Source: Egibacteraceae bacterium (GTDB taxonomy: Bacteria > Actinomycetota > Nitriliruptoria > Euzebyales > Egibacteraceae). Taken from it: a stretch of 41,901 nucleotides of DNA. The stretch is from assembly GCA_040905805.1 (NCBI GenBank), contig JBBDQS010000034.1:1-41901 (forward strand), in the 5' to 3' direction. Numbering within the stretch: position 1 is the first letter of the stretch; each line of letters starts with the position of its first letter. Under the pieces are notes generated by a model. That model worked only from the letters and a program-made list of their open reading frames with translations. It was not told the origin of the DNA and ran no database searches. Made by a program: the position numbers and the translations under genes. Shown in pieces: positions 30,759 to 41,793 of this stretch.

Positions 30759-32399
30759 TCAGCCGAGGAGGGAGAAGAAGCGGCCCGCGGCGGGGGCGGC
30801 AACGGTCCCGCCGAACCCCCCGCTCTCCACCAGTACCGCCACCGCCAGGTCGCCGCGGTACGCGATGAACCAGGCGTGGGTGGCCGTGCCGCTGCCGAAC
30901 TCCGCCGTCCCGGTCTTGCCGGCGACCGGTGCCCCGGGCACCTGCGCGGCGGTGCCGGTGCCGGTGCCGTCGGCGACGGCGTGCCGCATCAGGTCCTCCA
31001 GCTGCGCGTGCACACGCGCGGACAGCGGCTCGCCGCCCGGCGTCGCCTCGGCGTCGTCCAGGATGCGCGGCGAATCCCAGCGGCCTCGGGCCACGGCGGC
31101 AGCGACGCTGGCCATGTGCAGCGGGGTGGCCTCCACCCGGCCCTGGCCGATCGACGCGGCGACGTGCTCCACGGGGTCGGCCGGCTCCGGGAAGCGCGAG
31201 CTGGCGACGGGCACGCCGATGTCGTAGTCGATGCCGAAGCCGAACCGGCGGGCGATGGCTTCCAGCGCCCCGGCGGGCAGCTGGTCTGCCGCGTCAACGA
31301 AGGCGGTGTTGCAGGACTCGGCGAAGGCCTCCCGGAAGCTGATCGGCCCGAGGACGGCGAACCCGGCATTGCGGAAGCTGCGCCCGCCGATGCTGGTGGT
31401 CCCCGGGCACCCCACGGTGGCGGTGGGGTCGAGCCCCTGCTCCAGCAGGGCCGCGGTCGTCACCACCTTGAACGTCGAACCGGGGGGATAGCGCCCGGAC
31501 AGCGCACGGTTGAACCCGCCCGGCGGCGTGTTCACCACGGCGCGGACCTCGCCGGTCGGGACATCCACGGCCACGAGCGCCGCGGGATCGCCGATGGGGG
31601 CCAGCGCGGCCTGTCCCGCCTCCTGGACGCCAGGGTCAAGGGTCGTGCGCACCTGGCCGGGCTCGGTGGCGGCGAAGGCGTGCAGGACCGTGACCACCTC
31701 CCCGTCGGCGCTGACGACGCGGACCTCACCGCCTGGGGCCCCGGCGAGGCGCGACTCCAGGGACCGCTGCATCCCCGACTGACCGACCACGTCGCTGGCC
31801 TGGTAGGGCACCCCGAGCTCGGTGAGCTGCTCCTCGGTCACTGCCCCGACCGAGCCCGCCAGCTCGGCGAAGGGCCCATCGCCCAGGACGGTGCCGTCGC
31901 GGTCCACGAGGGCTGCCCGCACGGGCCACGCGCGGACCCGACCCAGTCGCTGCCCCGCGTCGAGCTCGGGGTGCAGGGCATGCGGCCCCCACGCGACAGC
32001 CCAGTCCGACTCGCCGGGCTGCAGGCCGACCGCACCCTCGTAGCGCCACTCCCCCAGCCCGGAGAGCGTGAGCGTCACCGTGTAGGACGCGAGGGCATCG
32101 GTCGGCCCGGGGGCGTCGAAGACCACGTCGGTGAGGGTCACCTCCGCGTCGGCGACGTGCAGCGTCTCCCACGCCTGCGCGTGCGCGGCGCCGGCACCGC
32201 CGTCGGGATCGGCCACCACGGCGTCGAGGCCCTCCCAGTCGCCGGTCTCCCAGGCAGCGGCGAACTGCTCGGCGGTGGAGATCGCCGCCAGCCGGACCTG
32301 ACGGGCCCGCTCCGCGCGCTGGGCCGCGAAGAGACCCGCGGTTACCGCCAGCGCCACCGCGGTTCCGGCCACGACCGCAATCGTCAGCCACCGCCGCAC
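30759..32399 (-). CDS. Penicillin-binding protein (transpeptidase) with NTF2-like N-terminal domain
   Basis: Peptidoglycan D,D-transpeptidase, 546 residues. One N-terminal membrane anchor (IAVVAGTAVALAVTAGLFAA) leads to an NTF2-like MecA-N-type domain (about 40-150) and a linker/dimer region. The transpeptidase domain (about 255-545) has the three active-site motifs: STFK (in YPPGSTFKVV), SCN (in AESCNTAF) and KTG (in VAGKTGTAEF). There is no glycosyltransferase domain, so it is class B. GTG start with GAGGAG 5 nt upstream. It follows dnaE on the same strand after 125 nt. Confidence 0.93.
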   Translation of the reverse strand: MRRWLTIAVVAGTAVALAVTAGLFAAQRAERARQVRLAAISTAEQFAAAWETGDWEGLDAVVADPDGGAGAAHAQAWETLHVADAEVTLTDVVFDAPGPTDALASYTVTLTLSGLGEWRYEGAVGLQPGESDWAVAWGPHALHPELDAGQRLGRVRAWPVRAALVDRDGTVLGDGPFAELAGSVGAVTEEQLTELGVPYQASDVVGQSGMQRSLESRLAGAPGGEVRVVSADGEVVTVLHAFAATEPGQVRTTLDPGVQEAGQAALAPIGDPAALVAVDVPTGEVRAVVNTPPGGFNRALSGRYPPGSTFKVVTTAALLEQGLDPTATVGCPGTTSIGGRSFRNAGFAVLGPISFREAFAESCNTAFVDAADQLPAGALEAIARRFGFGIDYDIGVPVASSRFPEPADPVEHVAASIGQGRVEATPLHMASVAAAVARGRWDSPRILDDAEATPGGEPLSARVHAQLEDLMRHAVADGTGTGTAAQVPGAPVAGKTGTAEFGSGTATHAWFIAYRGDLAVAVLVESGGFGGTVAAPAAGRFFSLLG

Positions 32400-32524: not shown

Positions 32525-35500
32525 TCAGGAGACGCTGTCGGACCCGAGCAGCATCTTCAGCTCGGCGTACAACCCCGGGCTGCGCGAGACGTAGAGGTCG
32601 GAGGGCAGGCGCAGCGTGGTCCCGTCGCCGTTGGCGCCCGCCAGCCGCAGGTGCACCTGCACGACCCCCGGGTGGCCGCCGAGGACGTCCTTCAGGCGCT
32701 CGACGACCTCGGCCGTGCACTGCTGCGGGGCCACGGTCAGCCGCAGCGGTGACGACGTCGCGTCGGACAGATCCGGGGCGTGCACGTCGGCGGCGATCAC
32801 CTTGGGGGTGTCGCCGTCGTCCAGACGACCCTTGACGCAGAGCACGGTGTCCTCCGTCAGGATGTCCTGCGCCGCCTGGTACACCTGCGGGAAGAAGATC
32901 GCCTCGATCCCGCCCTGGAGATCCTCGATCGTGCCGACGACGTAGGGCTCCCCGCGGCGGGTGAACTTCTTGGTGATGCCGGTCAGGATCCCCGCGACGG
33001 CGACGGTCCCCGACGCACCCTGCTCCAGCAGGCGTGCGATCGGCGCGGTCGACAGCGTCGCCAGCAGGCGCTCGAGCCCCAGGAGGGGATGGTCGGAGAC
33101 GTACAGCCCGAGCATCTCGCGTTCGGCCGCCAGCTTCTCCTTGCGCTCGAACTCCCCGTCGGGGATCGACACCGCCTCCACCAGTTCCGCGGTGCCCGCG
33201 GTCTCGCCGAACAACGAGAACTGCCCTTCGGCCTCAGCCCGCTTGCGGGCGATCGCCTGCTCGGTGATGGCCTCGAACACGGCCAGCAGACCCTTGCGGG
33301 TATGGCCGAGCGACTCGAACGCCCCTGCTTTGATGAGCGACTCGATCGTGCGCCGGTTCAGGACTCCCGCATCCACCTTGGCGCAGAAGTCGGCGAAGTC
33401 GGCGAATCGGCCCTTGGCGTGCCGGGACGCCACGATCGACTCCACGACCGCCTCGCCCACGTTGCGCACTGCGGACAACCCGAAGCGCACCTGGGGAACC
33501 GCCGTGTCGGGCGATGGCGTGAAGTCCAGGTCGGACTCGTTGACATCGGGGGCCAGGACGGTCATCCCCATCATGCGGCAGGAGTGCAGGTACAGGGGCA
33601 GGCGGTCCTTGTTGCTCTTGACGCTGGTGAGCAGCGCCGCCATGTACTCGACCGGGTAGTGGGCCTTCAGCCATGCCGTCTGGTAGCTGACGAGCCCGTA
33701 GCCGGCCGAGTGCGACTTGTTGAAGGCGTAGTCGGCGAAGCCCTCGATCAGGTCCCAGAGGTCGGTGGCGAGCTTGCTGGTGTAGCTGTTGGCGACGCAG
33801 CCGTCGACGAACTTCGACTTCTGCGCGTCCATCTCGTCTTGCTTCTTCTTGCCGATGGCGCGCCGCAGGAGGTCGGCCTGGCCCAGGCTGAACCCCCCGA
33901 GCTGCTGGGCGATCTTCAGGACCTGCTCCTGGTAGACCAGCAGCCCGTAGCTGTCTGCCAGGATGTCGGCGAGGTCGGGATGGGGTACCTCGACCTTCGA
34001 CCGTCCGTGCTTGCGCTCGGCGTACTCGCTGTGCAGACCCGCTGACATCGGCCCCGGGCGGTAGAGCGCCAGCAGGGCGATGATGTCGTCGAAGCAGTCG
34101 GGGCGCAGGTGGCGGCACAGCGACTTCATGCCGGCCGAGTCGAGCTGGAACACCCCGTCGGTGTCGCCGTCGGCCAGCATCGTGTACGTCGCGGCGTCGT
34201 CGAGGGCGATGTCCTCGATCACGACGTCCCGCCCGGTGTTGACGGCGATGTGGCGCAGGCAGTCGCTGATCACGGTGAGGTTGCGCAGGCCGAGGAAGTC
34301 CATCTTCAGCAGGCCGATGTCCTCGACCATGCCGCCGTCGTACTGCGTGACGATCTCCCCGTCGGACTCCAGCCGCAGGATCGGCGTGTACTCGGTGATG
34401 GCGTCGGGGGCGATCACCACCCCCGCGGCGTGGATCGAGTGCTGGCGCCGCAGCCCTTCGAGGCTGAGCGCGGTGTCGAGCACCTTGGCGGCGTCCGGTT
34501 CGTTCTCCCACGCCCCGCGCAGCTCGGCGGACAGCTTGCGGGCCTCGGCCAGCGGCTTGTCCTTGCCCATCACCGGCGGAGGCATCATCTTCGTCAGGCG
34601 GTCGCCGAAACCGAACGGGTAGCCGAGGACCCGTGCCGAGTCGCGGATCGCCTGCTTGGCCTTGATGGTCGAGAACGTGACGATCTGCGCGACCTTGTCG
34701 TCGCCGTACTTCTCCGTGGTGTAGCGGATCATCTCCCCGCGCCGGCGCTCGTCGAAGTCCATGTCGATGTCGGGCATCGACACCCGCTCGGGGTTCAGGA
34801 ACCGCTCGAAGATGAGCCCGTAGCGGATGGGATCGAGGTCGGTGATGCCGGTGCAGTACGCCACCAGGCAGCCGGCCGCCGAGCCGCGCCCGGGACCGAC
34901 GCGGATGCCGACCGCCCGGGCGTGGTCGCAGAGGTCGGCCACGATCAGGAAGTAGCCGGGGAAGCCCATCTGCTCGATGACGGCGAGCTCGGTCTCGAGC
35001 CGCTCCCGGACGTCGTCGCGCAGCGGGACGCCGTAGCGGCGCTCCGCGCCCTCGTAGACCTTGCGGCGCAGGTACTCCGCCTCGGTCATCCCGTCCGGAC
35101 AGCTGAAGGCGGGCAGATGGTGACCGCCGAAGGTGAGCTCGACGGCGCAGCGCTGCCCGATCTCCAGCGTGTTGCGCCAGGTCTCGGGGTGCTCCGGGAA
35201 GAGGGCGTGCATCTCCTCGGGCGCCTTGACGTAGAACTGGTCGCCCTTGAACTGGAAGCGGTCGGGGTCGTCCTTCTTGGACCCGGTCTGGATGCAGAGC
35301 AGCGCGTCGTGCGCCTCGGCGTCGCCCTGGTCGGTGTAGTGGCTGTCGTTGGTGGCGACCAGCCCGATGCCGAGATCCCGGGCGATCTCGACCAGGAGCG
35401 GGTTGTTCGCCCGCTGCTCGGGGATGGTGGTGTGGTCCTGCAGCTCGACGAAGTAGCTGTCCTGACCGAAGATGTCGCGGTGCCGGGCTGCGGCCGCGAC

Positions 35501-36001
35501 CGCCCCGTCGCGGTCGTCGGCGAGCAGCAGCTGGTTGACCTCGCCGCCGAGGCATCCCGACAGGCAGATGAGGCCCTCGGCGTACTCCGCCAACAGCTCG
35601 GCGTCGGCACGCGGCTTGTACCAGTAGCCCTCCAGGTAGGCCCGCGAGACGAGCTTCATGAGGTTGCGGTACCCCTGCTGGTTCTCGGCGAGCAGGGTCA
35701 GGTGGTGGTAGGGCTCGGCACGCGGGTTCGGTGCCCCGTCAGCGCCGGCGCCCCGTCGGCCGCCCTTGGCGAACCGGCTGTCGGGCGCGACGTACACCTC
35801 GCACCCGATGATGGGCTTCACCCCGTGGCGGAGGCCGGCCTTGTAGAAGTCGACCGCACCGAACATGTTGCCGTGATCGGTCATCGCGATCGCGGGCATC
35901 CCCAGCTCGGCGACCCGTCCCATGAGCGCGTCGATACGGCTGGCCCCGTCGAGCATCGAGTACTCGGTGTGGGTGTGCAGGTGTACGAACGAATCGCTCA
36001 C
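32525..36001 (-). CDS. dnaE: DNA polymerase III alpha subunit
   Basis: Replicative polymerase, 1158 residues, DnaE1 type. The PHP domain (about 1-270) keeps all nine metal-binding positions: HLHTH, MLDG, TDHGN, GCEVY, YHHLTLL, SGCLGG and NDSHYT, so PHP proofreading is probably active, as shown for mycobacterial DnaE1. The palm has the catalytic Asp pair in PDIDMDFD (near 410). Fingers, helix-hairpin-helix and an OB fold (about 1000-1085, VAGILTGITKKFTRRG) follow. GTG start; the nearest AGGAG is 13 nt away, a poor spacing. Confidence 0.96.
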   Translation of the reverse strand: MSDSFVHLHTHTEYSMLDGASRIDALMGRVAELGMPAIAMTDHGNMFGAVDFYKAGLRHGVKPIIGCEVYVAPDSRFAKGGRRGAGADGAPNPRAEPYHHLTLLAENQQGYRNLMKLVSRAYLEGYWYKPRADAELLAEYAEGLICLSGCLGGEVNQLLLADDRDGAVAAAARHRDIFGQDSYFVELQDHTTIPEQRANNPLLVEIARDLGIGLVATNDSHYTDQGDAEAHDALLCIQTGSKKDDPDRFQFKGDQFYVKAPEEMHALFPEHPETWRNTLEIGQRCAVELTFGGHHLPAFSCPDGMTEAEYLRRKVYEGAERRYGVPLRDDVRERLETELAVIEQMGFPGYFLIVADLCDHARAVGIRVGPGRGSAAGCLVAYCTGITDLDPIRYGLIFERFLNPERVSMPDIDMDFDERRRGEMIRYTTEKYGDDKVAQIVTFSTIKAKQAIRDSARVLGYPFGFGDRLTKMMPPPVMGKDKPLAEARKLSAELRGAWENEPDAAKVLDTALSLEGLRRQHSIHAAGVVIAPDAITEYTPILRLESDGEIVTQYDGGMVEDIGLLKMDFLGLRNLTVISDCLRHIAVNTGRDVVIEDIALDDAATYTMLADGDTDGVFQLDSAGMKSLCRHLRPDCFDDIIALLALYRPGPMSAGLHSEYAERKHGRSKVEVPHPDLADILADSYGLLVYQEQVLKIAQQLGGFSLGQADLLRRAIGKKKQDEMDAQKSKFVDGCVANSYTSKLATDLWDLIEGFADYAFNKSHSAGYGLVSYQTAWLKAHYPVEYMAALLTSVKSNKDRLPLYLHSCRMMGMTVLAPDVNESDLDFTPSPDTAVPQVRFGLSAVRNVGEAVVESIVASRHAKGRFADFADFCAKVDAGVLNRRTIESLIKAGAFESLGHTRKGLLAVFEAITEQAIARKRAEAEGQFSLFGETAGTAELVEAVSIPDGEFERKEKLAAEREMLGLYVSDHPLLGLERLLATLSTAPIARLLEQGASGTVAVAGILTGITKKFTRRGEPYVVGTIEDLQGGIEAIFFPQVYQAAQDILTEDTVLCVKGRLDDGDTPKVIAADVHAPDLSDATSSPLRLTVAPQQCTAEVVERLKDVLGGHPGVVQVHLRLAGANGDGTTLRLPSDLYVSRSPGLYAELKMLLGSDSVS

Positions 36002-36127: not shown

Positions 36128-37120
36128 CTACCCCCCTGGACCCGGGCGGGGGGCGGTCCCCGCGAGTCGGCGCAGCGTCTCCCGCGCGGCGACGAGGTCC
36201 GCGGGCAGGGGCTCGTCGACCGCCACGCGCGCGCCGGTCACCGGATGCACGAACGCCAGGCGACGGGCATGCAGGGCGGGACGGTCCAGCCCCAGCTCGG
36301 CGGCCAGCGCGGGGGACGCGCCGTAGAGGCGATCCCCGCAGACCGGGTGGCCGACCGCCGTGAGATGCACGCGGACCTGGTGGGTGCGACCGGTCTCCAA
36401 TCGCACCGTGAGCACCGCCGCCCGGCCGAGGTCCTCGTCGAGGTCGTAGTGGCTGATCGCCCGCCGGCCGGAGGGGTCGACGGCGAAGCGGGTGCGACGC
36501 GCGGTCGAACGCGCGATGGGCGCGTCGATGGTGGCCCGTGGCGGGCTCGGCACCCCCGCGACCAGCGCGGTGTAGACCCGCTCGACGTCGTGGGACCGGA
36601 AGCGGGCGGTGAGACCCTCGTGCGCCGCCAGGGTGCTGGCCACGACGAGCAGTCCCGAGGTGCCGCGGTCCAACCGGTGGACGATGCCGGGCCGCCCGGT
36701 CGGGCAGGCGGCGGCATGCGGGCCGCACGGGTCGGCCAGCGGTACGCCCATGGCGGTGAGGCCGTCCACCATGCTGCCCGTGCTCGGGTCTGTGCCGGCC
36801 CCGGCATGGACCACCAGGCCCGCGGGCTTCGCCACGACGAGCAGGTGCTCGTCCTGATAGCGCACGGGGATGGCGTCGGGCATCGGCGACGGCGCCTGCT
36901 CCGCGGCCGTCACCCGGACGCGCTGGCCGGTCCGGAGCCGCTGCGACTTGGTGATCGCGACACCGTCGACCGTGACGTCACCGGCGTCCAGGCGGGACTG
37001 CGCCCGCCCCCGGGTCTCGCCCAACCAGGCCGCCAGGGCCACGTCCGCGCGCCGGCCGTCCTCAGCGGCGTCCACGACCTGATCGAGCAGACGCTCCTGA
37101 CCGCGGTCGCTGCGATTCAC
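36128..37120 (-). CDS. RluA-family ribosomal RNA pseudouridine synthase
   Basis: 330 residues. An N-terminal S4 RNA-binding domain (about 25-85, RADVALAAWLGETRGRAQSR) precedes the catalytic domain. The active-site Asp is in GIVHRLDRGTSGLLVV, with ETGRTHQVRVHL and GHPVCGDRLYG downstream. It is probably RluD-like, modifying 23S rRNA, but the exact target cannot be told. GTG at 37120 overlaps the lspA stop (GTGA). It belongs to a lspA-rlu pair common in bacteria. Confidence 0.94.
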   Translation of the reverse strand: MNRSDRGQERLLDQVVDAAEDGRRADVALAAWLGETRGRAQSRLDAGDVTVDGVAITKSQRLRTGQRVRVTAAEQAPSPMPDAIPVRYQDEHLLVVAKPAGLVVHAGAGTDPSTGSMVDGLTAMGVPLADPCGPHAAACPTGRPGIVHRLDRGTSGLLVVASTLAAHEGLTARFRSHDVERVYTALVAGVPSPPRATIDAPIARSTARRTRFAVDPSGRRAISHYDLDEDLGRAAVLTVRLETGRTHQVRVHLTAVGHPVCGDRLYGASPALAAELGLDRPALHARRLAFVHPVTGARVAVDEPLPADLVAARETLRRLAGTAPRPGPGG

Positions 37121-37872
37121 GGCTTCCGGTCTGGGGACTCCGGTCGCACCGACTGGTGCGTCGCGCGGGCGGCCGCGGCAGCGCGCTCCTCCCGGTCGAC
37201 GATGGTGAGCAGCACCGCGATGCCCACCGCTCCAACGACGATGCCGATGTCCGCCACGTTGAACACGGGCCACCAGCCGATGTCGAGGAAGTCGACGACG
37301 TGGCCGGAGGGAAAGCCCGGTGGGCGCAGCAGCCGGTCGGTGACGTTGCCGAGGGCCCCGCCGGTGACCAACCCGTACACGGCAGCCAGGGAGAGACGGT
37401 CGGTCCGCGGGAGCGCGCGCACCACCAGGACGACCACGAGGATGGTGACGACCAGGAACAGCGCGGGGAACGCTGGGATCCCGAACGCGCCGCCCGGATT
37501 GCGGACCAGCCGCAGATCGAGCGGACCCACGGAGGTGCCGGGCACCCCCGTCGCGGGCAGCTGGGCGACGGCCAGCACCTTGGTGGCCTGGTCGAGCAGC
37601 AGCCAGATCACCGCCACGCCGAGCGTCGTCGCGTAGATCAGGCGGCGGGGCAACAGGGGCTTGGCCTCCGGCGCGGGCGACGCCGACGCCGACGCCACAA
37701 CGGCGGAGCGTCGCGTGGGGACCGCGTCGCCGACGCTGCCGGTGCCTTTCGGACCGCCCTTGTCGGGACGGAAACGTCGCCGTTTCGCCCCCTGCTCGTC
37801 CGCCGACCTGGTCGGCTCGGCGGGGGCGTCGGCAGGGCCGTCGTCGGTCGTGTTGGTCTCCATGGCGTTCAT
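37117..37872 (-). CDS. lspA: Lipoprotein signal peptidase with long N-terminal extension
   Basis: Cleaves signal peptides of lipidated prolipoproteins. 251 residues from the ATG at 37872; a typical LspA is about 160-200. About 80 N-terminal residues form a polar, Ala/Pro/Asp- and Lys/Arg-rich region ahead of helix 1. Core motifs: LLLDQATK, VRNPGGAFGIP, GALGNVTDRLL (first catalytic Asp) and FNVADIGIVV (second). A TACACT box 7 nt upstream suggests a leaderless message. An in-frame ATG 42 nt further upstream and a Met four residues in are alternatives. Confidence 0.93.
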   Translation of the reverse strand: MNAMETNTTDDGPADAPAEPTRSADEQGAKRRRFRPDKGGPKGTGSVGDAVPTRRSAVVASASASPAPEAKPLLPRRLIYATTLGVAVIWLLLDQATKVLAVAQLPATGVPGTSVGPLDLRLVRNPGGAFGIPAFPALFLVVTILVVVLVVRALPRTDRLSLAAVYGLVTGGALGNVTDRLLRPPGFPSGHVVDFLDIGWWPVFNVADIGIVVGAVGIAVLLTIVDREERAAAAARATHQSVRPESPDRKP

Positions 37873-37879
37873 CGCCCGC

Positions 37880-37885
37880 AGTGTA
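37880..37885 (-). promoter_or_regulatory. Putative -10 box of lspA (leaderless)
   Basis: TACACT on the minus strand, 7 nt before the lspA ATG at 37872, no ribosome site between. Confidence 0.4.
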
Positions 37886-37946
37886 GCGGTGGACGCGGCC
37901 ATGGCTGGCTGCACCCTCCCGACGACGGAGGCCGCAGGTCGGGCGT

Positions 37947-37952
37947 TACGAT
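37947..37952 (+). promoter_or_regulatory. Putative -10 box of ileS
   Basis: TACGAT, 32 nt before the GTG at 37985, followed by an AGGAGG ribosome site (37975-37980). If correct, the leader is too short for a T-box riboswitch. Confidence 0.45.
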
Positions 37953-37984
37953 GCCCTGACCCTTTCCGATGCGCAGGAGGACCT

Positions 37985-40900
37985 GTGGGTTTCGAGCCTG
38001 TGGAGCAGCATCCCGACTTCCCGGCGCTGGAACGCCGGGTGCTGGAGCGGTGGCGGGGAGAGAAGATCTTCCAGCAGTCGGTGGATGCCCGCGCGGACGG
38101 GCCCCTGTTCCGCTTCTACGAGGGGCCGCCGACCGCCAACGGGCAGCCGGGTGTGCACCACGTCGAGTCGCGGGCCTTCAAGGACCTCTTCCCCCGCTAC
38201 CGCACCATGAAGGGCTACCGCGTCCCCCGCAGGGGGGGATGGGACTGCCACGGCATCCCGGTGGAGATCGCGGTGGAGAAGGAGCTCGGCTTCACGCGCA
38301 AGTCCGACATCGAGGCCTTCGGCGTCGCGGCCTTCAACGCCCGCTGTCGCGCCTCGGTGACCCGCTACGTCGAGGACTGGGAGCGCCTGACGCAACGCAT
38401 CGGCTTCTGGGTCGACACCGACGACGCCTACTGGACCATGTCCACGCCCTACGTGGAGAGCGTGTGGTGGTCCCTGGCGGAGCTGTGGTCCAAGGGCCTC
38501 ATCTACGAGGGCCACAAGGTCGTGCCCTACTGCCCCCGGTGCGGCACGGCGCTGTCGGACCACGAGGTCGCGCTCGGCTACGACACGGCGGTCGACCCGT
38601 CGGTCTACGTGCGACTGCCGGTGCTCGAGGACAGGCTGGCCGAGGAGGGGGCCGCCCTGCTCGTCTGGACGACCACGCCGTGGACCCTGGTCTCCAACAC
38701 CGCGGTGGCCATCGGTGCGGACATCGCCTACGTCCTCGCTCGTCGACCGACCGACGACGGTCCGCTCGTGCTGGCAGCCGAACGGGTCACCGAGGTGCTC
38801 GGCGAGGACGCCGAGATCATCCGTACGGTGTCCTCCGACGAGCTGTACGCCCTGCACTACCGCGCGCCGTTCGACGACCTCGACGATGAGGTGTCGGACG
38901 ACTGGCACTACGTCACCGTGGCGGATTTCGTCACCATCGCTGAAGGCACGGGGCTCGTGCACCTCGCCCCGGCCTTCGGGGCCGACGACATGGCGGTCGC
39001 CCGTACGGACGGGTTGCCGGTGGTGAACCCTGTCGACCTCGAGGGCTGCTTCGACGCGCGCGTGCCTGCCCTCGCCGGTCAGTTCGTCAAGGCCGCCGAC
39101 CCGGCGATCATCGAGATGCTGCGCGACCGCGGCCTGTTGGTGCGGTCTGGTGAGTACACGCACACCTACCCGTTCTGCTGGCGCTGCTCCACGCCACTGC
39201 TGTACTACGCCAAGCCCTCGTGGTACATCGCCACCACCACGGTCCGCGACCGGCTCCTGGAGGTCAACAGCCAGGTCGACTGGCATCCCCCGCACATCCG
39301 CGAGGGGCGCTACGGCGACTGGCTTCGGAACAACGTCGACTGGTCGCTGTCGCGCGAGCGGTACTGGGGCACACCGCTGCCGCTCTGGCGCTGTGAGCAG
39401 TGCGACACGGTGACCGCGGTCTCGTCGTTGGCCGATCTCGGGGAGAAGGCGGGGCGCGACGTGGCGGGCCTCGACCCCCACCGCCCCGCCGTCGACGAGA
39501 TCACGATCGCCTGCCCGGCCTGCAAGGCGACCGCGCACCGTGTTCCCGAGGTGATCGACGCCTGGTACGACTCGGGGTCGATGCCCTTCGCGCAGATGGG
39601 CTACCCGCATGTCGAGGGCAGCACCCGGCAGTTCGAGGACGCCTTCCCGGCTGACTTCATCTGCGAGGCCATCGACCAGACCCGCGGATGGTTCTACTCG
39701 CTGATGGCCGTCTCCACGCTGCTGTTCGACGCCAACAGCTATCGCACCGTGCTCTGCCTCGGGCACATCGTCGATGCCGAGGGCAAGAAGATGTCGAAGT
39801 CGCTCGGCAACGTGCTCGACCCGTGGGAGCTGATCGAGTCGCGCGGCGCCGACGCACTGCGCTGGCTGCTGCTGACCGACGGCTCGCCATGGCTGGCGCG
39901 GCGGGTCGGGCCCGAACCGCTCGACGAGGTCACCCGCAAGTTCCTCCTGACGCTCTGGAACACCTACTACTTCTTCGCGACCTACGCGCGCATCGACGGC
40001 TGGGAGCCCGCGAGCTCACAAGCCCCACCGGTGGGGGAACGCCAGGTCCTCGACCGGTGGGTGCTGGCCGAGCTCGCCGAGGTCGTCCGCGTGGTGGACC
40101 GCAGCCTGGACGGCTTCGATGCCACCACCGCAGGCCGTGCCATCGCCGTGTTCGTGGACGACCTGTCGAACTGGTACGTCCGCCGCAGCCGACAGCGCTT
40201 CTGGACCGCCGATGACGTCACCTCTGCCCCGGGAGCCGACAAGGACGCGGCGTTCTCGACCCTGCACGAGTGCCTGGTGACCCTCGCCGCACTGGTCGCG
40301 CCGTTCATCCCGTTCCTGGCCGACGAGCTGTACGGCAACCTGGTCGGCGCGGTGGACCCCCACGCGCCGGCGAGCGTCCACCTGCTCGACTTCCCCACGG
40401 TCGACGAGCGCGCCGTCGACGACGGCCTGCGCGCCGCGATGGGCGCGGCCCGGCGCACCGTGGAGCTGGGGCGGCGGGCCCGCAACGACGCCAAGGTGGG
40501 TCTGCGGCAACCGCTGCGACAGGCATTGGTCACCGTCCCGGCGGACGTGCGCGAGACCTGGCCGACGGTCGCCGGGGTGGTCGCCGATGAGCTGAACGTC
40601 AAGCACCTGGGCGTCCCCGACAGCCGAGACGGTCTGGTCACCCACCGCGTGAAGCCGAACTTCCGGGCCCTCGGGCCTGACTTCGGCAAGCGCACCCCGG
40701 CCGTTGCGGCCGCCATCGAAGCCGCCGACCCGGCCATCCTGGCGGCCGCACTCGCAGAGACCGGGGAGGCCGAGGTGCTCGTCGACGGCGCCCCTGTCCG
40801 CGTCACCGCCGAGCAGGCGCAGGTGCACGAGGAATCCGCCCGGGGCTGGCAGGTCTCCAGCGACGGGCCGTTCAGCATCGCCCTCGATCTCGCCCTCGAC

Positions 40901-41167
40901 GACGAGCTGCGCCGGGAGGGCCTGGCCAGAGAATGGATCCGTGCGTTGAACGATCTGCGCAAGCAGGCCGGACTGGCCTTCGACGACCGAATCGAGTTGG
41001 AGGTGGCCGCCGAGGGCGAGCCGGCCGCCGCCCTCGACGAGCATGCTGCGGGCATCGCCAGCGAGGTGCTGGCCGTGTCCCTGCGGCGCGGCACGGCCGA
41101 GGGCGGCCAGGCGCTGTCCTTGAGCGGGGGCGCCCAGGTCCGGGTGCGGCTGGCGGTCGCCCGATGA
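37985..41167 (+). CDS. ileS: Isoleucyl-tRNA synthetase, type 2, with swapped HIGH motif
   Basis: Charges tRNA-Ile; 1060 residues. The usual HxGH signature (as in PHYGH of related enzymes) reads GVHH at residues 56-59 (PTANGQPGVHHVESRAFKD, codons 38150-38161): Gly and His have changed places. KMSKS is intact near 600. The CP1 editing domain is bracketed by CPRCG, WTTTPWTL and GWDCHGIPVE. The late class-I core and tRNA-binding C-terminus look complete. The GXHH form has been reported in hyper-mupirocin-resistant type 2 IleRS. GTG start with AGGAGG 4 nt upstream; the long open frame before it overlaps lspA and is not real. Overlaps the next gene by 4 nt (ATGA). Confidence 0.95.
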   Translation: MGFEPVEQHPDFPALERRVLERWRGEKIFQQSVDARADGPLFRFYEGPPTANGQPGVHHVESRAFKDLFPRYRTMKGYRVPRRGGWDCHGIPVEIAVEKELGFTRKSDIEAFGVAAFNARCRASVTRYVEDWERLTQRIGFWVDTDDAYWTMSTPYVESVWWSLAELWSKGLIYEGHKVVPYCPRCGTALSDHEVALGYDTAVDPSVYVRLPVLEDRLAEEGAALLVWTTTPWTLVSNTAVAIGADIAYVLARRPTDDGPLVLAAERVTEVLGEDAEIIRTVSSDELYALHYRAPFDDLDDEVSDDWHYVTVADFVTIAEGTGLVHLAPAFGADDMAVARTDGLPVVNPVDLEGCFDARVPALAGQFVKAADPAIIEMLRDRGLLVRSGEYTHTYPFCWRCSTPLLYYAKPSWYIATTTVRDRLLEVNSQVDWHPPHIREGRYGDWLRNNVDWSLSRERYWGTPLPLWRCEQCDTVTAVSSLADLGEKAGRDVAGLDPHRPAVDEITIACPACKATAHRVPEVIDAWYDSGSMPFAQMGYPHVEGSTRQFEDAFPADFICEAIDQTRGWFYSLMAVSTLLFDANSYRTVLCLGHIVDAEGKKMSKSLGNVLDPWELIESRGADALRWLLLTDGSPWLARRVGPEPLDEVTRKFLLTLWNTYYFFATYARIDGWEPASSQAPPVGERQVLDRWVLAELAEVVRVVDRSLDGFDATTAGRAIAVFVDDLSNWYVRRSRQRFWTADDVTSAPGADKDAAFSTLHECLVTLAALVAPFIPFLADELYGNLVGAVDPHAPASVHLLDFPTVDERAVDDGLRAAMGAARRTVELGRRARNDAKVGLRQPLRQALVTVPADVRETWPTVAGVVADELNVKHLGVPDSRDGLVTHRVKPNFRALGPDFGKRTPAVAAAIEAADPAILAAALAETGEAEVLVDGAPVRVTAEQAQVHEESARGWQVSSDGPFSIALDLALDDELRREGLAREWIRALNDLRKQAGLAFDDRIELEVAAEGEPAAALDEHAAGIASEVLAVSLRRGTAEGGQALSLSGGAQVRVRLAVAR

Positions 41168-41793
41168 GGCGGCCCCCCCGGCGCGTCGCGCTCGATGTCG
41201 TGCTCGTGGGCGTTACGGCCGCAACCGGCGTGGCCGTCGCGCGCCGGGCCTTGGCGCGCATCGAACCGCCGACCAACATCACCGGGGCGCCGGTGCCCCT
41301 CGACCGGCCGTTCCGCCCGCGGCTCGGCAGCGCGCCAGACGCCCGCATCCTGCCGCCGCGGTGGGAACCGCTCGGGTTGTCCGCGCTGGCACGGTGGGAA
41401 CCGGCGCCACCCCGGCGCGCTGTGGCCCGCGCAGCCGCCTACGCCTGGGCTGCGCCGCTGACCGCTGTCGGTCTGCTCGTCGGCGGTCTCGCCGGCGTGC
41501 GCCCCCGCGTCCGCGAGGGCGTGCTCCTGTTCGCCGACGCCCGCGGTCCGGCCGGTGCGGTGCTGCGCTCGCGAGGGTTCTCCGCCGGGGCGATCGGCCA
41601 CGTGGTCGTGGCGCTCAACGACCCGTCACCACGGCTGTTCGCCCACGAGCTCGCGCACGTGCGCCAGGCCGAGCGCCTCGGCCTGGGCCTGGCCCCGCTG
41701 TACCTGGGACTGCTCGCGGTGTACGGCTACGCGCGGCATCCGTTGGAGCGAGCGGCCAGGGTCGCGGCGCGCCGCACCGCGGGCGCCCCCTAG
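41164..41793 (+). CDS. Small membrane protein with HELAH motif, unknown function
   Basis: 209 residues with three hydrophobic stretches (about 8-28, 90-110 and 180-195), an Arg/Pro-rich middle, and FAHELAHVRQAERLG near 160-175. HELAH fits the HExxH zinc-protease signature, so a membrane metallopeptidase-like role is possible, but the rest matches no family I recognise and the third zinc ligand is not obvious. The ATGA overlap with ileS implies coupled translation. Confidence 0.75.
   Translation: MRRPPRRVALDVVLVGVTAATGVAVARRALARIEPPTNITGAPVPLDRPFRPRLGSAPDARILPPRWEPLGLSALARWEPAPPRRAVARAAAYAWAAPLTAVGLLVGGLAGVRPRVREGVLLFADARGPAGAVLRSRGFSAGAIGHVVVALNDPSPRLFAHELAHVRQAERLGLGLAPLYLGLLAVYGYARHPLERAARVAARRTAGAP

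Follow-up and report, generated by a model that had tools for sequence, protein, structure and literature searches.

A non-canonical GXHH signature in the housekeeping type 2 isoleucyl-tRNA synthetase of an Egibacteraceae bacterium

The isoleucyl-tRNA synthetase (IleRS) encoded in the 41,901-nucleotide stretch of Egibacteraceae DNA analyzed here (the window) carries GVHH in place of the class I signature HxGH. It is the only ileS found in its genome, and it is very probably a type 2 enzyme (IleRS2) from a GXHH subclade that has already been described. Its third-position histidine would both support catalysis and clash with mupirocin. The exchange itself is not new, since Brkic et al. 2023 (PMC10485003) already described it in IleRS2. 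The initial annotation had pointed to the right paper, and its interpretation as a whole is partly supported.

The ileS gene, its type, and its locus

The gene lies within a longer open frame and probably starts at the GTG at 37985, upstream of which stands AGGAGG. The features of the gene and its surroundings are as follows.

32525 to 36001, minus strand: dnaE, DNA polymerase III alpha (NF004226, 1448 bits)
36128 to 37273, minus strand: RluA/RluD-family pseudouridine synthase (TIGR00005; extent of the ORF, true start inside)
37117 to 37914, minus strand: lspA, signal peptidase II, divergent neighbor of ileS (PF01252)
37661 to 41167, plus strand: full open frame containing ileS, likely start inside
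37975 to 37981, plus strand: probable ribosome-binding site of ileS (AGGAGG), from the sequence upstream of GTG 37985
37985 to 41167, plus strand: ileS, type 2 isoleucyl-tRNA synthetase, 1060 amino acids (ORF, TIGR00392, PDB matches)
38039 to 39874, plus strand: class I catalytic domain with the CP1 editing insertion (PF00133, Pfam, residues 19 to 630)
38150 to 38161, plus strand: GVHH, non-canonical class I signature replacing HxGH, residues 56 to 59
38960 to 38989, plus strand: editing-site signature HLAPAFGADD in CP1, residues 326 to 335 (read from the sequence)
39788 to 39802, plus strand: KMSKS, intact, residues 602 to 606
40052 to 40519, plus strand: anticodon-binding domain (PF08264, Pfam, residues 690 to 845)
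40577 to 41146, plus strand: C-terminal DUF5915, the type 2 C terminus (PF19302, Pfam, residues 865 to 1054)

The codons ggtgtgcaccac (ggt-gtg-cac-cac) at 38150 to 38161 of the plus strand are read in the ileS frame as Gly56-Val57-His58-His59. The alignment is ungapped at this site: the window protein has ANGQPGVHH, wild-type IleRS2 of Priestia megaterium (PmIleRS2) has ANGLPHVGH, and the GVHH mutant of the latter has ANGLPGVHH. Structures 8c8u and 8c8v place HVGH opposite GVHH with no gap nearby, and the alignment to the IleRS2 enzymes of the PDB revealed no other HxGH at the active site of the window enzyme. The replacement reported by the initial annotation, and the intact KMSKS reported with it, are thus confirmed. 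The sequence with which it compared the site, LPHYGHLLTGYVKD, is real but comes from the other actinobacterial IleRS2 clade. Residues W132 and H594 correspond to W130 and H582, which lie near the site in PmIleRS2, and both are conserved.

Membership in the IleRS family is given by the equivalog model TIGR00392, against which the protein scores 892 bits (cutoff, 621). The assignment to type 2, also proposed initially, holds on several grounds. Pfam finds PF19302 and no match to the C-terminal zinc finger of IleRS1, the PDB search gives 914 to 931 bits for the IleRS2 of P. megaterium and Thermus thermophilus and at most 342 for IleRS1 structures, and the trees place the protein with IleRS2. The best PDB match is 8c8w, the engineered GVHH mutant of PmIleRS2 (E value of 1e-278). 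A GXHH IleRS2 was defined by Gly or Ala at position 1, His at positions 3 and 4, and a retained KMSKS, and the window protein has all of these. Two other identities were rejected. The GPPYANG.IHxG context and the C terminus of IleRS1 are absent, the window protein reading GPPTANGQPGVHH and carrying DUF5915; and the exception models for the acquired resistance enzymes MupA and MupB require more than 1900 bits, whereas the window protein reaches 828 and 781.

Judging from its domains, the enzyme looks fully functional, with the catalytic, editing, and anticodon domains intact. A second editing signature, WTTTPWTL, was also found, and the last Asp of HLAPAFGADD is presumed to be the catalytic editing residue, as the positional equivalent of D333 in the Streptomyces griseus enzyme (SgIleRS; PMC4861432).

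The initial annotation took the gene to be the housekeeping ileS, and the locus agrees: lspA, rluD, and dnaE adjoin it, all on the opposite strand. A search of the organism's own genome (95.3% complete, 166 contigs) with the ileS family returned one full IleRS match, the remaining long matches being ValRS, LeuRS, and MetRS by sequence; the check for a second ileS proposed with the annotation thus yielded none in this assembly. Extra IleRS copies are known in other bacteria (PMC12945691), and Allokutzneria holds a GVHH copy besides an HYGH copy, so that a paralogous resistance or biosynthetic enzyme, as are MupA and SbzA, had to be considered. The single IleRS found, the conserved core locus, and the three intact domains make this very unlikely, and the window ileS is a housekeeping gene of the lspA-rluD-dnaE locus, present as a single copy in what was assembled.

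Two further genes of the window were recorded. At 30759 to 32399 (minus strand) lies a penicillin-binding protein with MecA_N (NTF2-like) and transpeptidase domains, and at 41164 to 41793 (plus strand) a small ORF overlaps the end of ileS and carries a metalloprotease-like HELAH motif, with no Pfam match.

Characterized GXHH enzymes and the expected response to mupirocin

In the published tree, 86 IleRS2 sequences carry G/AXHH versus 77 with HXGH, and none of the IleRS1 sequences carries G/AXHH, all of them being stated to have HXGH (PMC10485003). The wild-type IleRS2 of Deinococcus radiodurans (DrIleRS2), which reads ALHH, has a Ki for mupirocin of 6.6 mM, and changing the motif to HVGH lowers it 823-fold, to 8.1 μM (PMC10485003). 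In the opposite direction, the change from the natural HVGH to GVHH raises the Ki to 460 μM in PmIleRS2 and to 35 μM in the T. thermophilus enzyme (TtIleRS2), a gain of about 200-fold or more in these two enzymes (PMC10485003). SgIleRS, a GXHH IleRS2, has a Ki of 10 mM and rescues mupirocin-inhibited Escherichia coli (PMC4861432; motif from PMC10485003). In the structures, the third His occupies the site of the first, and its steric clash with mupirocin is the authors' explanation of hyper-resistance (PMC10485003).

By analogy with these enzymes, His58 of the window protein would take over the stabilization of the transition state from the missing first His, with Gly56 filling the vacated first position. 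What would permit the substitution is that, in IleRS2, the helix bearing the motif sits farther from the adenine. His58, being bulky, would in turn clash with bound mupirocin and exclude it, so that the expected Ki for mupirocin is high-micromolar to millimolar. Since the values published for GXHH enzymes run from 35 μM to 10 mM, how strong the resistance would be is uncertain. The hyper-resistance announced by the initial annotation is thus supported as a prediction from the published mechanism, but it was overstated as a property of this enzyme and organism, to which it is extended from relatives.

The characterized relatives differ in how closely they match. SgIleRS is, like the window enzyme, an actinobacterial GXHH IleRS2 (PMC4861432, PMC10485003), but its Ki of about 10 mM is a measured value whereas the resistance of the window enzyme is deduced. 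The motif of DrIleRS2 is likewise natural and of the swap type, with His in third place, but it begins with Ala (ALHH), and the enzyme belongs to another lineage. PmIleRS2 (8c8u, 8c8v) shares the type 2 architecture and KMSKS, and its mutant 8c8w has exactly GVHH; unlike the window enzyme, however, the wild type reads HVGH, and the species also has an IleRS1. The initial annotation had cited PmIleRS2 as a natural GXHH enzyme, which is mistaken because PMC10485003 gives it as naturally HVGH, with GVHH a laboratory mutant. The literature searched contained no paper dealing with Nitriliruptor and mupirocin together.

Distribution and inheritance of the motif

The nearest named relatives of the window IleRS belong to Euzebyaceae, Nitriliruptorales, and Egibacter metagenome-assembled genomes, at 66 to 72% identity, which most likely puts this uncultured organism in Nitriliruptoria (Actinomycetota). 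A sweep of 66 genomes of the window's class, 57 of them with ileS, showed GXHH in nearly every ileS, that of a genome of the same genus included. The exceptions have HYGH only (the three genomes of family f3, G024, and G059) or carry both forms (G021 to G023). An evenly drawn set of 297 Actinomycetota genomes was then searched with patterns for the two motifs: GXHH was matched in 146 of the 297 and HXGH in 72, both together only in G022 and G023. For genomes with neither motif, two loose DNA patterns gave almost only chance matches, and most of these genomes were resolved by family search and reading of ORFs. GXHH is therefore the rule in the window's class and occurs in about half of the sampled Actinomycetota. 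The motif is no rarity, whether in this census or in PMC10485003, where about half of the bacterial IleRS2 carry it; on this point the initial annotation, which placed it in a subset of IleRS2, needs correction.

The same counts bear on the reality of the swap. Although the window is part of a draft assembly (166 contigs), independent assemblies from the same genus and from across the class show this motif at the equivalent position, which leaves a negligible probability for an artefact of sequencing, assembly, or reading frame. With GXHH in the same-genus genome and in nearly all members of the class, chance and sequencing error are excluded.

A tree of the sequences found by the patterns, computed after masking the motif columns, unites the GXHH sequences in one clade (SH-aLRT 99) and the HXGH IleRS2 in another (SH-aLRT 93); within the first, the window is the sister of the relative from its own genus. 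On the basis of these clades and of the window's place in them, GXHH in this lineage is read as old and vertically inherited. Canonical actinobacterial enzymes of the FANGLPHYGHLLTGYVKD type (L118-L147) are likewise IleRS2, but they keep HxGH, form a separate clade, and are about 40% identical to the window protein. A large-genome family (f23, L099-L106), probably Streptomyces-like, has GAHH where the window has GVHH. In the window's own family, four GVHH enzymes (L044, L071, L072, L073) carry KMSKR instead of KMSKS.

Why the motif exists is a separate matter. It may be an ancient, near-neutral catalytic alternative fixed at the base of the clade, with mupirocin resistance as a by-product, a reading to which we give somewhat less than even chances and which is compatible with the proposed role of His58. 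In favor of it, the clades of the IleRS2 trees are cleanly sorted by motif, few changes being needed, the motif is fixed in many families, and in DrIleRS2 the non-canonical form brings no catalytic trade-off (PMC10485003). The authors of that study, however, favor antibiotic selection, and since the gain is ancient, the present distribution says little about the original selection.

Two-gene genomes, reversion, and other altered signatures

Two IleRS2 genes each, one GVHH and one HYGH, occur in three genomes of a single genus from the window's order (L148 and L149 in G021, L150 and L151 in G022, L152 and L153 in G023); G024, of that genus, has HYGH only. The GVHH gene of G021 has divIVA and sepF nearby, and the HYGH gene is located elsewhere. 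Tree placement puts the HYGH copies of G021 to G024 amid HYGH enzymes from other actinobacteria; f3 and G059 have HYGH copies on separate branches. This suggests that HYGH was acquired two or three times in the class. Allokutzneria sp. A3M-2-11 (L018:5893-9168 and L166) has a GVHH IleRS2 that groups with Nitriliruptoria in addition to its own HYGH IleRS2; the GVHH gene adjoins a TetR regulator and is possibly a natural acquired resistance copy.

In family f12, two IleRS2 (L199, L200) read HIGH, and a GIHH enzyme from that family groups with them at 100% support. This is probably a reversion inside the GXHH clade of Actinomycetota, and such reversions have been reported for Deinococcus-Thermus (PMC10485003).

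Other signatures are altered as well. Deep-branching IleRS2 of families f44, f45, f53, and f58 (L204, L205, L207-L211) have GVHH, GVHT, or AVHT, and MHYS, MHKS, or MHGS in place of KMSKS, each being the sole strong ileS-family match in its genome; a further member of this clade, L206, combines GVHH with FSKSR. In L203 (G099), an IleRS2 with GVHN and KMSKH, both signatures are changed. Among the sampled IleRS1, 29 read HXGT, the fourth His being replaced by Thr (L167, L168, L170-L175, L177-L191, L193-L196, L212, L214), versus the HXGH given for all IleRS1 in PMC10485003. A second ileS-like fragment of G047 (L087, HLGT) was set aside as probable contamination, as it lies at a contig end in a haloarchaeal-looking context.

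Taken singly, the window IleRS is of little significance: it adds one lineage to the naturally mupirocin-hyper-resistant IleRS2 already described. According to the census, most members of some parts of Actinomycetota have the swap. The genomes with both forms, the reversion, MHxS in place of KMSKS, and HXGT in IleRS1 offer test cases for the cost and mechanism of altered signatures. We tentatively propose, as a possibility we hold to be distinctly less probable than its negation, that in the window's class an ancestral GXHH was joined or replaced two or three times by a laterally gained HYGH, and that GXHH gave way to HIGH elsewhere in the phylum, implying that GXHH carries a cost. If this is true, GXHH should be measurably costly to fitness when no inhibitor pressure acts, and the window's class would serve as a natural experiment on what the swapped motif costs.
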